Below the pieces are notes generated by a model, which ran no database searches, was not told the DNA's origin, and was given only the letters and a program-made list of their open reading frames with translations. A DNA stretch of 59,174 nt from an uncultured Intestinimonas sp. (GTDB lineage: Bacteria > Bacillota > Clostridia > Oscillospirales > Oscillospiraceae), in assembly GCF_944387725.1 (NCBI RefSeq), contig NZ_CALXGA010000004.1, positions 1-59,174 on the forward strand, written 5' to 3'. The position numbers and the translations under genes were made by a program. This document shows positions 10,503 through 39,799 of the stretch, piece by piece (positions within the stretch are counted from its first letter, which is position 1; the number at the start of each line of letters is the position of its first letter).

Positions 10503-10667
10503 TTCTCATGCGTAAAAAACAAAGCCACAGGTCTGGAAAGGCTCTCCGCCCATTGGCTCTGCACATCCTGGGGCAGTCTTTTTCAGCGCGCCCCACGCGG
10601 ACACAAAGAACTGTGCGGCCATGCCGCACGAATCAACCCCTTTGCGGTCAATTCAGCCAATGACATT
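10503..10667 (-). repeat. Structured leader element, copy C (upstream of parA)
   Basis: Read on the minus strand it begins AATGTCATTGGCTGAATT, continues with GGTTGATTCGTGCGGC and a GTGCGGC/GCCGCAC hairpin, and ends with GGCTTTGTTTTTTACGCATGAG. The two ends match the copies at 34290-34541 and 39391-39612; the middle is diverged but still forms hairpins (GGGGC...GCCCC). It lies between the parA promoter and the parA Shine-Dalgarno, so it would be the parA 5' UTR. Confidence 0.65.
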
Positions 10668-10696
10668 ATTATAATGCCCCCGGCGGCGGAATTCAA
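10668..10696 (-). promoter_or_regulatory. Probable sigma-A promoter of parA
   Basis: On the minus strand TTGAAT (10691-10696), a 17-bp spacer and TATAAT (10668-10673). It lies 12 bp downstream of a parS site, so ParB binding could influence it (inference). Confidence 0.75.
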
Positions 10697-34260: not shown

Positions 34261-34289
34261 TTGCCTTTCCCGCGCCCATAGGGTAAAAT
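34261..34289 (+). promoter_or_regulatory. Probable promoter of the structured leader / C39-like operon
   Basis: TTGCCT (34261-34266), 17-bp spacer, TAAAAT (34284-34289), followed by AATGTC as at the parA promoter, where the -10 is also followed by AATGTC. Confidence 0.65.
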
Positions 34290-34541
34290 AATGTCTGCTG
34301 AATCAGCCGCAAGGCGGTTGATTCGTGCGGCACAGCCGCGCAATTCTTCCCACAACCGCCGAAATTGGCGATTGTGGGTAAAAGTCAGCCATTCCTGCAA
34401 TGCGTCCTTCTGCGGCGGAATGGATATGCCGCCGCAGGAAGTGCAGGTATTTTGGGCTGAAAGAGCCCAAAATACCTGCACTTGAACAAAGCCAATGGGC
34501 CTTGAAGCCCTGGCTTTCGGCTTTGTTCTTTACGCATGAAA
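34290..34541 (+). repeat. Structured leader element, copy A
   Basis: Four successive hairpins: 34349-34378 (CCCACAA...TTGTGGG), 34411-34436 (TGCGGCGG...CCGCCGCA), 34441-34481 (18-bp perfect stem GTGCAGGTATTTTGGGCT) and 34484-34528 (GAACAAAGCC...GGCTTTGTTC). It ends TTTACGCATGAAAA, 33 bases before the next gene. It is homologous to copies at 39391-39612 and, at the ends, 10503-10667. Confidence 0.8.
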
Positions 34542-34574
34542 ATAGGGAAAAACAGAACCCAGGAGGGACTTGCA

Positions 34575-35279
34575 TTGGAACACACCTGTGGCCGGAAGCA
34601 AAAAACACAGACAAAAAATAGGGAAAAAAAGCCCGCCTTGGAACACTTCTATGGCCTGAGCCGCCCGGAGCTGCTCACCATTACCGAGGGAAAGAAGACC
34701 TGGCAGGGGGCGGATCAGCTCTGGTACGCCGACGAGTGGAAGCAAAAGGCGGGTTGCGGCCCCACCGCCGCCTCGGTGATGGCAAGCTACCTGGCCCAGA
34801 CCCGCCCGTCCTGTGCCGCCCTCTATCCGTCCGGGAGCCAGGCGAAGGCCGATTTCACCGCCCTGATGGGGGAGCTCTGGCAGTACGTCACCCCCGGCAA
34901 GCGCGGGGTCAACCGCCCCCGCCTCTTCGCTAAGGGCTTTCACACCTTTGGGTCGGCCAAGGGGGTGGAGCTCCCCCTGCGGGAGCTGGATATCCCCCGC
35001 TTCAAGCTGGCCCGGCCCACGGCGGACCAGTGCGCCGCCTTTCTGCGCTCCGCCCTCTCTACCGACGCCCCGGTGGCCTGGATGAACCTCCACCGCGGGG
35101 AAGTGGAGCACCTGGACAACTGGCACTGGGTCACCATCATTGCCCTGGAGGAGCGCTCCGACGGCGCCCTGCTGTGCACCTTTTTGGACAGCGGGAAGGA
35201 GCTTACCGCCGACTTCCGGCTCTGGTTCCAGACCACCAAGCTGGGGGGCGGCCTGGTGAGCGTGGGGGAGACCCCATGA
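34575..35279 (+). CDS. Papain-fold (C39-like) cysteine peptidase-type protein
   Basis: 234 residues. The motif AGCGPTAASVM (C61), WHWVTI (H184) and FLDSGKEL (D205) form a Cys-His-Asp set like that of C39-type peptidases. No signal peptide or TM segment is seen, so it is probably cytoplasmic. The start is TTG 34575, 8 bases after AGGAGGG; an ATG at 34536 lacks a ribosome site. It overlaps the DUF1294 gene by ATGA. Substrate unknown. Confidence 0.75.
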   Translation: MEHTCGRKQKTQTKNREKKPALEHFYGLSRPELLTITEGKKTWQGADQLWYADEWKQKAGCGPTAASVMASYLAQTRPSCAALYPSGSQAKADFTALMGELWQYVTPGKRGVNRPRLFAKGFHTFGSAKGVELPLRELDIPRFKLARPTADQCAAFLRSALSTDAPVAWMNLHRGEVEHLDNWHWVTIIALEERSDGALLCTFLDSGKELTADFRLWFQTTKLGGGLVSVGETP

Positions 35280-35818: not shown

Positions 35819-38800
35819 TTACGGGAACAGGGCCTCAGCCATCTGCATGGCCCCCTTGTGATCCCATTCATAGCGCTCCAAAGTATCCGCCCCCACACCG
35901 CAGAAATAGAAGCCATACGCGGCCCGGCCCCGGTCGCTGGTGGGGTCGAAATAGAGCCACTGGCCGTCGATGCGAGCCAAATCCCACATATGGTTCTCTC
36001 CGCCCATCTTGCCGCTGACGGTGACACAGGGGATGCCCGCCTGGGCCAAGAGGGATTGGAAGGCCTGGGCGTACCCGCCGCAGATGGCCAGTTGATCGTG
36101 GAGCGCCCCGTAGGCGGTTGTGGAATCATAGGGCATCTCGCCGGGCGTGCCGTAATAGCGGAAGTCGTAGCGCACATGCTCCGTCAGATGGGTATACAGG
36201 GCCTCCGCCTGCTCCGCCTGGGACATATCCGCGGTGACGGTTTGACCATAAATCCGCTCCGCCAGGGTCTGAATCTCCGCCAGACGCGCCAGGGCCGCTT
36301 CCCGGGTCAGGCCGCCCTGGGGCGTGACGGTGATGGCAGTCCCGTCCCGGTTGAGCTGGCAGAGCAGGTAGCCCCCGCCCACCTGTTGGAGGGCCCGGTT
36401 CATATCGTCCACCGCCAGGCTGGGATCGGTCAGGCGGATGGGGATGCTCTCCTGGTCCAGCCCCTCCTGGGCGATTTGCAGCAGGCCGGCCAGAGAGGCG
36501 GCTTCCGCCCCCTGAAATCCGTCTGGGTAATCGCCGGTGCGGTAGGGCATATAGGATATGGTGCATTGCAGCAGCCCATCTGCGCCAATCTCTGCGGTCA
36601 GATCATAGGCATACTTGTACGCCGGATGGTCCGACAAAATCCCGTAGTAGAGATTCTTGACGGCAGTGGGCAAGTCCTCCACCGCCAGGCCGGACACATC
36701 GAAGGCGGGGGGCTGCACCACCGCCGCGATGGCCTGGGTCAGCGCTTCCTGAAGTTCCTCCAGGCTGGAGACAGCGGGGGTCTCCGGCTGGGTGGGGGAG
36801 ACTGGGCCGGCCTCCTCCTGCCAGGCCAGCCCCAGGTTCTGCCGGATGACGGTCCGCAGCGCCGTCATATCCGGGTCAGCCCAGAAAAAGCGCAGCTTTT
36901 CCTCCGCCACCGTGTTTCCCTGTGGCTCACCGCCCAGGACAAAAACGGCAAAGGTGTCGGCAATGTCCTCATGGAAGTAGTTGGCCCCGTAGCGGCTGAC
37001 ATAGCGGGTGGGGTTCTGGTCGTAGTCGTCCACGCCGGTGTCCCCCAGAGAGGCCCAAAAGGCGTCATAAAACGCCTTGCGGAAGGAGCCAGCAACAAAG
37101 CCGGCCGGATCGTGGGTGCTGCTGCCCACAGTCAGATCCACCTGGGTCTCGTCCTCCAGCAGGACGTGTCCGTACTCGTGGAGGATGGTGTAGGTCAGCT
37201 TGCTCCAGTCCCGCTTCTCCCCGTTCTCGTCATATACGTCGTAGTAGTCGATGCTGAGGGAGAACCGGGTGTTGTCCGTGACGCCGTCGGCCTCCATGGG
37301 GGAGGTGTAGGCCAGTACATTGCTGGTCCCATCGGTAAACAGGTTGAATTCCGCGATTTTCTGCCGGGCCTCCTGGGGGAGGATGGCGCACAGATAGTCC
37401 CATACAAGCTGATCCTCCGGGTCTGTGACGCTGGCCTGTCCGCCGCTCACCGGGTAGGAGGCGAGCACGTTGGTGAGGCCCACAGAGTAATTGCCTACCG
37501 TGACCAGGCAGCCCACCTCGCCGGTGGAGAGGGTGATGTATTTGCTGTAGACCGGGTCGGCCCAGCTGGTCTGCCCGTCCTCCTCCGCAGTGGGGGCGCC
37601 GTACATGGCCGCAATCAGGGCCCGCACCTCCGCCTCTGTGCAGCCCGTCTCCTCCGGGCGGATCTCGATGCGATCCAGGAAGCCGTTGCGGTACTGGTAG
37701 TAGGTATTCATGGGCGTCTGGCCGTCGAACCAGCGCATGGAGTAGCGGTAGGTTTCATATACATCCGTCCACTCGTTCCAGGAGACCTCCCAGGTGTCCG
37801 TCAGCTCCCCCGCCGCGCCGATGTAGGCCTCGGTCTCGGCCCGGGAGCTGCTGAAATAGATCACGTTCTGCGGGGTCTGGCGGTAGGTATAGCCCTCCCC
37901 CTGGGCCCGGGCCAGCTCCCGGTAGGAGGCGGTCTCAGGGGCGCAGATCTCCCGCGCCGCCGCCAGGGCGGTCTCCGCCGCCGAGGCGATGGCGTACTGG
38001 TCCAGCTGATCCGCGGTGTCCGCCGCCGAGTGGTACAGATAGCCCTGACCATCCTGCATCAGCAGGACGGAGGGGATGCCGGCCAGCTGGAGGGAGGCGT
38101 GGTCGCTGGCGGTCTCCGCCCGCCGCTCCAGACTCGGGTCCTTCTCCTGGAGCAGATCGCTGACCCAGTTGGCCTCGCCGTCCATGGTGCACACCAGCGT
38201 CCCGCTGGCGCCCAGGCCGCCCAGCATATCAAACTGGATGGCCCCGATCATCCGCCCCGTCTCCTCCTCCGTCAGGGAGTCGGTATAGGCCCGGGATCCG
38301 TTTTTGCCGTTCTCCTCGTCGGTGAAGCTGATGAAACGGAGCTCCGTATCGCTCTCCACATCCTTCAGCGCCTCCGCCGCGTAGAGCAGAGCCGCCGTGC
38401 CGGAGGCGTTATCATTGGCCCCGTAGGCGGTGGGCACGCTGTCGTGGTGGGCGGACAGGATCAAAATATCCGCGTCGGGGGAGGGGGCAGCCTTCACCGC
38501 AATCACATTGCTTCCGGTCCGGCCCTGGCTGTCGGTACAGGGCTGGAGGGTGACTGCGTACCCCATTCCCTCCAGCCGCTCCTTTAGGTATTGGGCGGCG
38601 TCCGCCTCTCCCTGGGAGCCGATGGGCCGGGGGGAGGCGGTGAGGGCCGCTAAATCCGCCCCCAGGCCGGTGAGATCCGAGAGGGAAGCGGCCCGCTCCA
38701 GCATCACCAGGGCCTCCGCCACCGGGATGCCGCCGTTGGGCGCCAGGACCCCGGAACCCCGACCGCCCATCACGCCCGCCTGGAGGCTCCAAAGCACGGC

Positions 38801-39250
38801 GGTTCTGGCCCAGGCCTCCACAGCGTCCACGTCCTGAAATTGGCTGATGTTCTGTACAGCCGCGCCGGGAGACCCCGCCCGCCGCCAGAGAATGGCGGCG
38901 AACTCCTGGCGGGTGACGGAGCGGGAGGGCTCATAGGTTCCGTTCCCCACGCCGGTGAGATAGCCCTGTTCTGCCGCCCAGGTCACCGCGCCGGCATAGA
39001 CGCCGGACACGTCAGAGAAGGGGCAGACTTCTGAGACCGGGGGACGTCCCGCCGCTTCATAGAGCAGCTGGGCCGCCATGCCCCGGGTCACGATTGTACT
39101 CGGCGCGGCCAGGAATTCCTGGCTGACAGCCTGTTCCCGTCCCCAGGACAGGGCCTCCTCCGCCCAGGCGGGCCAGGGGTCTGACGGCGTGGCGGAAGAG
39201 GGGAGAACCAACAGGGCCAGGCCAAGCAGGAAAGCAGAGATTCGTTTCAT
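35819..39250 (-). CDS. S-layer-anchored multi-protease (SLH, M28 peptidase, HEXXH, transglutaminase-like)
   Basis: 1143 residues. A signal peptide (1-22) and three SLH repeats (about 25-190) are followed by an M28 aminopeptidase domain (about 195-430; AHHDS at H268/D270, GANDNASG, FTDEENG, YHSAADT). A second module (about 440-830) has the zinc motif HEYGH at 691-695 and resembles the lipoprotein at 56385-57488. A C-terminal transglutaminase-like domain has C1057 (ICGGYAQAF), H1087 (ENHMWDL) and D1102 (YFDPTSD). The start at ATG 39250 follows GAGGTG. It should be a surface enzyme processing peptides or wall proteins. Confidence 0.88.
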   Translation of the reverse strand: MKRISAFLLGLALLVLPSSATPSDPWPAWAEEALSWGREQAVSQEFLAAPSTIVTRGMAAQLLYEAAGRPPVSEVCPFSDVSGVYAGAVTWAAEQGYLTGVGNGTYEPSRSVTRQEFAAILWRRAGSPGAAVQNISQFQDVDAVEAWARTAVLWSLQAGVMGGRGSGVLAPNGGIPVAEALVMLERAASLSDLTGLGADLAALTASPRPIGSQGEADAAQYLKERLEGMGYAVTLQPCTDSQGRTGSNVIAVKAAPSPDADILILSAHHDSVPTAYGANDNASGTAALLYAAEALKDVESDTELRFISFTDEENGKNGSRAYTDSLTEEETGRMIGAIQFDMLGGLGASGTLVCTMDGEANWVSDLLQEKDPSLERRAETASDHASLQLAGIPSVLLMQDGQGYLYHSAADTADQLDQYAIASAAETALAAAREICAPETASYRELARAQGEGYTYRQTPQNVIYFSSSRAETEAYIGAAGELTDTWEVSWNEWTDVYETYRYSMRWFDGQTPMNTYYQYRNGFLDRIEIRPEETGCTEAEVRALIAAMYGAPTAEEDGQTSWADPVYSKYITLSTGEVGCLVTVGNYSVGLTNVLASYPVSGGQASVTDPEDQLVWDYLCAILPQEARQKIAEFNLFTDGTSNVLAYTSPMEADGVTDNTRFSLSIDYYDVYDENGEKRDWSKLTYTILHEYGHVLLEDETQVDLTVGSSTHDPAGFVAGSFRKAFYDAFWASLGDTGVDDYDQNPTRYVSRYGANYFHEDIADTFAVFVLGGEPQGNTVAEEKLRFFWADPDMTALRTVIRQNLGLAWQEEAGPVSPTQPETPAVSSLEELQEALTQAIAAVVQPPAFDVSGLAVEDLPTAVKNLYYGILSDHPAYKYAYDLTAEIGADGLLQCTISYMPYRTGDYPDGFQGAEAASLAGLLQIAQEGLDQESIPIRLTDPSLAVDDMNRALQQVGGGYLLCQLNRDGTAITVTPQGGLTREAALARLAEIQTLAERIYGQTVTADMSQAEQAEALYTHLTEHVRYDFRYYGTPGEMPYDSTTAYGALHDQLAICGGYAQAFQSLLAQAGIPCVTVSGKMGGENHMWDLARIDGQWLYFDPTSDRGRAAYGFYFCGVGADTLERYEWDHKGAMQMAEALFP

Positions 39251-39390
39251 CAAGCCACCTCATCCTCTTACAATGTCAGCGTGGATTTGCCGGCCCTGTT
39301 GGAACCGCGGCGCGGGGGGCCGGTATCAACAAGGCTTTTCCTATAGACGGCGCATGGGGGGAAAAGTTTTCCCCGTCTTTGACCGGAGCG

Positions 39391-39612
39391 CATACAGCCG
39401 CGCAATTCTTTCCACAGCCGCCGAAATCGGCGGTTGTGGGAAGCATTCAATCATTGATGCAATGGGTCCTCACGCGGCGGCATGGATATGCCGCCGCAGG
39501 AAGTGCAAGAGTTTTGGGCGGTTTCAGTTCAAAACCCTTGCACTTGAACAAATCCAATGGGCCTTAAGCGCTTTCGCTTTCAAGGCTTACGGCTTTGTTC
39601 AGTACGCATGAC
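39391..39612 (+). repeat. Structured leader element, copy B (upstream of lexA)
   Basis: Hairpins at 39412-39439, 39474-39497, 39503-39543 and 39546-39600 match copy A in order and spacing. Paired changes preserve the stems (GTGCAAG...CTTGCAC against GTGCAGG...CCTGCAC). It ends CAGTACGCATGACA. The 5' third of copy A (GTTGATTCGTGCGG) is missing here. It lies about 210 bp before lexA in the same direction. Confidence 0.78.
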
Positions 39613-39661: not shown

Positions 39662-39713
39662 GGCGGTCAAAATCCATCGCCGCTGGACACATCGCCAATT
39701 TTCAAACAAGCCC
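39662..39713. mobile_element. MITE-1 fragment (about 52 bp of one end)
   Basis: Matches one terminus of MITE-1 (GGACACATCGCCAATTTTCAA to GCCC, then TA). The other two thirds are missing. It lies between leader copy B and lexA. Confidence 0.88.
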
Positions 39714-39770
39714 TAATTGCTCGCTCTTTTTTCCTGCAACATCTTGACACCGCCAGGGCGGTACGACGGT

Positions 39771-39799
39771 TTGACTTTTTGTTTACGGTATGATAAGAT
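39771..39799 (+). promoter_or_regulatory. Promoter of lexA
   Basis: TTGACT (39771-39776), 17-bp spacer, TAAGAT (39794-39799), 26 bases before the ATG. I do not see a clear Gram-positive SOS box (GAAC-N4-GTTC) over it. Confidence 0.7.

Follow-up and report, generated by a model that had tools for sequence, protein, structure and literature searches.

The window, a 59,174-nt stretch of DNA from an uncultured Intestinimonas sp. (contig NZ_CALXGA010000004.1 of assembly GCF_944387725.1), contains three related copies of a short, hairpin-rich element. One lies between a promoter and the start codon of the gene at 34575-35276, one between the promoter and the start codon of parA, and one upstream of lexA, and each runs in the direction of the next gene, as an initial annotation of this DNA had stated. 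The copy limits were taken from model matches and the ends were checked by eye; the copies are numbered here by position.

10508..10666, minus strand: first copy, internally shortened and decayed, in the -10 box of parA (35.4 bits with model R2, 52.4 bits with model R1)
10668..10696, minus strand: host promoter of parA, TTGAAT-17-TATAAT (hexamers and spacing also present in 8 of 8 close orthologues without the element, by eye)
34261..34289, plus strand: host promoter of the 34575 gene, with the -35 hexamer TTGCCT (34261-34266), a 17-bp spacer and the -10 hexamer TAAAAT (34284-34289)
34284..34290, plus strand: left target duplication TAAAATA, which includes the -10 box
34291..34537, plus strand: second copy, a full-length element of 247 bp, supported by its fold and by its R2 match (231 bits, E 6e-76; it is one of the 14 copies used to build R2)
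34538..34544, plus strand: right target duplication GAAAATA, with 1 of 7 positions changed
39364..39609, plus strand: third copy, without a recognisable first hairpin (P1) or target duplication (R2 142 bits, E 1e-45)
39771..39799, plus strand: lexA's own promoter, TTGACT-17-TAAGAT, 3' of the element (similar in 8 of 8 orthologues)

The initial annotation had described three copies with common motifs and hairpins. All three are real and form part of a single dispersed family with strong structure, but their limits had to be corrected to those listed above. When the second copy was compared by BLAST with the window's genome, 30 matches were obtained, palindromic self-matches among them; the third copy was recovered at E 6e-48 (79% identity) and the first, in part, at E 1e-9. 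The second copy is laid out as domain I (hairpins P1-P3), a 7-nt linker and domain II (hairpins P4-P6), and the RNA fold of 34290-34545 is far stabler than its shuffles (z = -10.8). No Rfam family matched the window at the gathering score. Fifteen sub-threshold Rfam matches around the second copy (microRNA, snoRNA, snRNA and a few others) were judged to be chance.

The proposed promoter linkage of two copies was borne out, since the promoters of parA and of the 34575 gene were each found once where 0.2 matches were expected, and both copies begin at the -10 box, which is followed by AATGTC. The first copy is flanked by TATAATA on its left and GAGAATG on its right, a duplication that has decayed. 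The 34575 gene occurs in 11 of the 11 genomes of the genus, and promoters similar to its own are seen in other relatives; it had been called ‘C39-like’ but has no Pfam family at E ≤ 0.001, while the identities of ParA and LexA were confirmed by Pfam. The third copy does lie upstream of lexA, as had been noted, but lexA's own promoter stands between them, and its TTGACT occupies the same position in each of the 8 orthologues (by eye). The copy is upstream of this promoter and is not a lexA leader.

For the structure of the family, we aligned 14 full copies from six genomes of the genus over about 255 bp, a length too short for a transposase gene. The consensus consists of two tandem cloverleaf-like domains with about 7 nt between them; domain I is closed by ATG.CTG/CAG.CAT and contains P1-P3, and domain II is closed by ATGCGT/ACGCAT and contains P4-P6. 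The earlier claim that the structure is kept while the bases change holds well beyond the window. In alignment A4, which was fitted to the model and has 83 distinct rows, 69 of the 87 pairs carry two-sided changes, and the covarying cells number 635, compared with 165 when shuffled and 75-94 when slid; in the MAFFT alignment A3, two-sided changes are found in 31 of the 87 pairs. On the sense strand, G-U exceeds A-C (193:126 in 59 representatives and 49:27 in A3), which hints, weakly, at selection on RNA, the cells being not independent and 105 of the 319 lying in one helix. Full-model matches are present in 7 of the 11 genomes of the genus, in 28 of the 120 genomes of the family sample and in 24 of 106 genera, and R2 matches, antisense ones included, number 89 in G010 and 36 in G000. 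By eye, the genes that neighbour the other copies look unrelated.

The junctions of the copies indicate how they arrived. From 85 matches we dropped L104, which is the same as L057, and L112, which is cut by a contig end, and the lack of a left flank in L147 reduced the remaining 83 to 82 copies with both flanks. Exact direct repeats of 6-7 bp stand at the junction in 48 of the 82 (37 of 7 bp and 11 of 6 bp), while shuffling the partners gave 7.0 on average and never more than 14 in 2000 trials; 13 copies have no duplication even when one mismatch is allowed. One insertion, common to two species (L140 and L150), was counted twice. Nearly all duplications read TANNNTA or TANNTA, with TACTCCA and TATTTC as the exceptions. 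The terminal inverted repeats are imperfect, the consensus ends ATGTCTGCTGAAT and ATGCGTACTGAAC agreeing at 9 of 13 positions by eye.

The orthologous loci are empty. For the second copy, the sister genome G004 has an empty site with a single TAAAATA (L044). Judged by models R1 (E 0.1) and R2 (E 0.01), the element is absent from the parA locus in 8 of 8 close orthologues (8 of ten other genomes have a close ParA), from the 34575-gene locus in 10 of 10, and from the lexA locus in 8 of 8 (8 of 10 genomes). In G062, 17 full copies have a median identity of 0.976, the minimum being as low as 0.82 because two subfamilies are present, and these copies are a recent burst. Given the inverted repeats, the target duplications, the empty orthologous loci and the IS5-family insertion sequences (ISs) with near-identical ends described below, the family is a non-autonomous mobile element (MITE), a parasite-like insertion and not a switch common to particular genes. 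Retroposition of RNA was considered and set aside, as a transcript initiated at the neighbouring -10 box would lack the element's first bases. We also observed minimal palindromic forms of ~45-60 bp that consist of the two element ends only (G062:C8:58295-58342 and G062:C12:124464-124511, in L158 and L164, and L026 in G000:C9).

The parent ISs were traced through G062, in which a truncated transposase with a match to NF033578 (IS5 family; E 2e-97) is preceded, at a distance of about 120 bp, by an element-like end. Scanning named genomes yielded 72 relatives, of which 41 were examined for ends. At L181, an IS of 1553 bp has the same first 16 bases, ATGTCTACTGAACAAT, at both ends and the duplication TATATA; L183 holds an IS of 1557 bp with TAACGTA, L186 one of 1533 bp with TAAATA, and L177 one of 1555 bp with an inexact duplication. 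Relatives from Lachnospiraceae and Clostridia have GTGTCTGCTGATTAA-like ends and TAATTA or TACTTA duplicated, and many other loci among the 41 gave no convincing ends. All 5 tested transposases of such loci exceeded the NF033578 cut-off. By eye, the L181 end matches each consensus element end at 13 of 16 positions, and similar ends adjoin an IS5-type transposase in G062 and G057 and an IS5-type remnant in G105. The ISs that match NF033578 (L177, L181, L183, L186 and L198, the last with GTGTCTGCTGATTAA as its ends; from Oscillospiraceae, Lachnospiraceae and relatives) resemble the element in having ends like ATGTCTRCTGAAYAA and a TAN2-3TA duplication, but differ from it in being 1.5-1.6 kb long and carrying a transposase gene.

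Among 20 genomes searched, 18, including that of the window, have no transposase over the NF033578 cut-off; the other two are G062, whose transposase is truncated, and G089, whose IS5-type transposase has no element-like ends nearby. We therefore infer the mobilising enzyme in the genomes with -10 insertions. Most of the solo element ends in G062 have no adjoining transposase, while one led to an IS5-type transposase (L161) and one stands beside an IS1182-type fragment (L160). At the latter (G062:C29:15722; L160 1223-1939), the partial IS1182-type transposase is accompanied by a ~190-bp direct repeat in the same stretch.

The duplicated targets are strongly enriched in one sequence. Outside G062, 27 of the 43 seven-bp TANNNTA duplications are TATAATA or TATTATA, which together make up 11 of 135 (8.1%) TANNNTA sites in flanking DNA (p 3e-19), and read along the element, 24 of the 27 are TATAATA versus 3 TATTATA (p 5e-5). 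The -35 region was scored at the 47 sites outside G062 that have a -10 match of at least 5/6, with the better side taken: the score was above 5000 of 5000 resamples, and TTG stood at spacer 17 in 15 of the 47 sites versus 0-5 for each of the other spacers between 5 and 39. For the strict promoter and gene-direction tests we used 81 copies, L045 having failed the longer flank requirement, and both hexamers were present in 15 sense and 6 antisense cases among the 64 sites outside G062. With genes called by codon usage, the next gene has the same direction at 32 of 34 sense promoters, and the previous gene is reversed in 8 of 10 antisense cases; a cruder and noisy longest-ORF call gave gene directions of 20:14 (sense) and 5:5 (antisense). 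G062 differs, as 9 of its 16 called duplications are 6 bp long and 2 of its 7 seven-bp ones are at a -10 sequence.

Partial copies in the genus were found more often from the 5' side. The 5'-module matches (82, that is, 83 R1 matches minus one antisense) lack a nearby 3' module in 50 cases, and the 3'-module matches (49, that is, 60 R3 matches minus 11 antisense) lack a 5' module in 17, so 5'-only modules, often at promoters, exceed 3'-only ones by about 3:1; contig edges, or copies whose other end escaped the model, account for a few on either side, and some of the 50, the parA copy included, are shortened copies whose 3' end the model did not recover. Forty-five of the 50 were scored, five having no usable flank, and the paired copy L354 is outside this set. 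A -10 match of at least 5/6 is present at the junction in 27 of the 45, and 19 of these 27 also have a -35 match of at least 4/6, with 18 at spacer 17. At a gene that resembles a UDP-muramoyl ligase and adjoins an RNase P RNA-like sequence (both names by eye), G010 has domain I and G007 the first hairpins only (L028, L040). A 5' remnant at G000:C15:5125-5183 (L358) lies directly 5' of a cobalamin riboswitch-like sequence (by eye).

From these data, we consider it very probable that the family is a hairpin-rich MITE that is moved by IS5-family transposases and lands on promoters, sparing the promoter and adding a leader. Transposases of the NF033578 type would recognise the ATGTCTRCTGAAYAA-like ends and duplicate a 6-7 bp TAN2-3TA target. 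In most of the sampled host genomes the commonest such target is TATAATA, which is the -10 box found in ordinary promoters, and the element mostly has its 5' end next to the -35 side there. The duplication re-creates the -10 box on that side, so that the promoter should keep working. With the promoter surviving, the element should therefore be transcribed as a 5' leader. Transcription would start about 7 nt on, inside ATGTCTG, among the first bases of the element, and with the P1 stem beginning at element base 10, the 5' end of the RNA would be followed within a few bases by a hairpin. The resulting mRNAs would carry this 5'-terminal hairpin and a structured leader, which later deletions may trim while tending to spare the promoter-proximal hairpin. 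In other bacteria, 5' hairpins slow mRNA decay, and an effect on mRNA stability or expression is conceivable here. A more far-reaching version, which we regard as doubtful, is that the transposition system recognises the -10 box itself in a fixed orientation, that the duplication installs a mobile, promoter-sparing leader whose first hairpin protects the mRNA, and that lineages trim the leader but keep the hairpin, leaving many genes with an acquired cap-like 5' structure.

The initial annotation had instead read the copies as a regulatory RNA family linking chromosome segregation and the SOS response. If the copies were a family of cis-regulatory leaders or small RNAs with a function of their own, carried by genes such as parA and lexA, this would account for the strong covariation, the slight sense-strand excess of G-U and the promoter linkage, but we consider it very improbable, because the element is missing at the three window loci from all the close orthologues that were examined, has target duplications and an empty site, is patchily distributed among the 120 genomes and has no Rfam family at the gathering score. 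The absence from orthologues, the neighbour genes that look unrelated by eye, and the ends, target duplications and related IS5-type ISs leave the segregation-SOS link without support. Lack of covariation and random orientation, which the annotation had named as outcomes that would speak against it, did not arise, but neither distinguishes between a regulatory RNA and a mobile element that is structured and lands on promoters. The case is a caution that covariation and promoter linkage alone do not make a regulatory RNA. Even the covariation might have arisen at the DNA level, through correction of one arm by the other (template switching in palindromes) or a need of the transposase for DNA hairpins, and not through selection on RNA. 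We hold this to be almost an even prospect: the subfamilies differ wholesale in the arms of P3 and P4, and other bacterial MITEs give hairpin-rich transcripts too (PMC2229807), whereas the one-strand G-U excess speaks, weakly, for RNA.

For the MITE that we favour, the -10 bias can be explained by targeting or by survival, and we regard the two as nearly equal. Under survival, the element would insert at any TAN2-3TA, and mainly those copies would persist that spare the promoter and have a tolerated orientation. The absence of the bias among the fresh copies of G062 fits this, as do some fairly similar copies in G010 (nearest identity 0.93-0.95), which are at mixed targets (for example TACTCCA, TATATA and TATGATA). 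The ISs likewise use many TA-rich targets, the well-delimited ones sitting at TANNTA or TAACGTA and none at TATAATA, and a near-symmetric target would hardly yield an orientation bias. However, a neutral intergenic site should be equally tolerated, and young copies are already all at TATAATA, namely three in G049 (nearest identity 0.988-0.992) and four in G032 (0.945-0.965); survivorship is a possibility that we lean somewhat against. That the young copies of G049 and G032 are all at TATAATA, those of G010 are mixed and those of G062 are unbiased speaks, though not decisively, for a target choice that differs between hosts, rather than for age alone.

Short mobile repeats with a conserved multi-hairpin structure also include bcr1 of Bacillus cereus, whose sequence and target are unlike those of the present family. 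Hairpin RNA, modular forms and promoter effects are familiar features of bacterial MITEs (PMC3049150, PMC10969869, PMC2229807). BOX, RUP and SPRITE of Streptococcus pneumoniae are likewise small dispersed intergenic repeats that fold when transcribed and are co-transcribed with genes; BOX is modular, and terminal inverted repeats tie BOX and RUP to insertion sequences (PMC3049150). Compared by description, an excess of BOX, RUP and SPRITE lies between convergent genes (PMC3049150), whereas the present family often occupies -10 boxes, where it is flanked by a 7-bp duplication and has a gene 3' of it. Correia elements and other bacterial MITEs share with it terminal inverted repeats, target duplication, hairpin RNA and promoter sequence at or in the element, but Correia elements bring their own promoter sequence (PMC10969869, PMC2229807), whereas here the -10 box is the host target, re-created by duplication. 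Among the matches listed from the open-access literature, we found no report of such an element from Oscillospiraceae and none of a MITE targeting the -10 box.

Insertions into core promoters are usually regarded as inactivating. Here the -10 box is often what is duplicated, so that the promoter is still readable after insertion and the gene should acquire a new structured 5' leader. With many genes per genome and empty-site orthologues in sister species, the family is a natural replicated experiment on how mRNA decay and translation respond to 5' hairpins in gut Oscillospiraceae. It also offers a way to test if promoters can be aimed at by a DDE transposase.

Two further features were noticed alongside the element. 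A large protein with S-layer homology, peptidase M28 and transglutaminase-like domains is encoded on the minus strand of the window at 35822-39253. By eye, a second short repeat family of ~200 bp, with the ends TTAGGGCTTGTTTGAAA and TTTCAAACAAGCCCTAA, is present at L002 1301-1480, L009 1328-1500 and L021; it is likely another MITE, and a relic of it lies in the window at about 39690-39728 (by eye).
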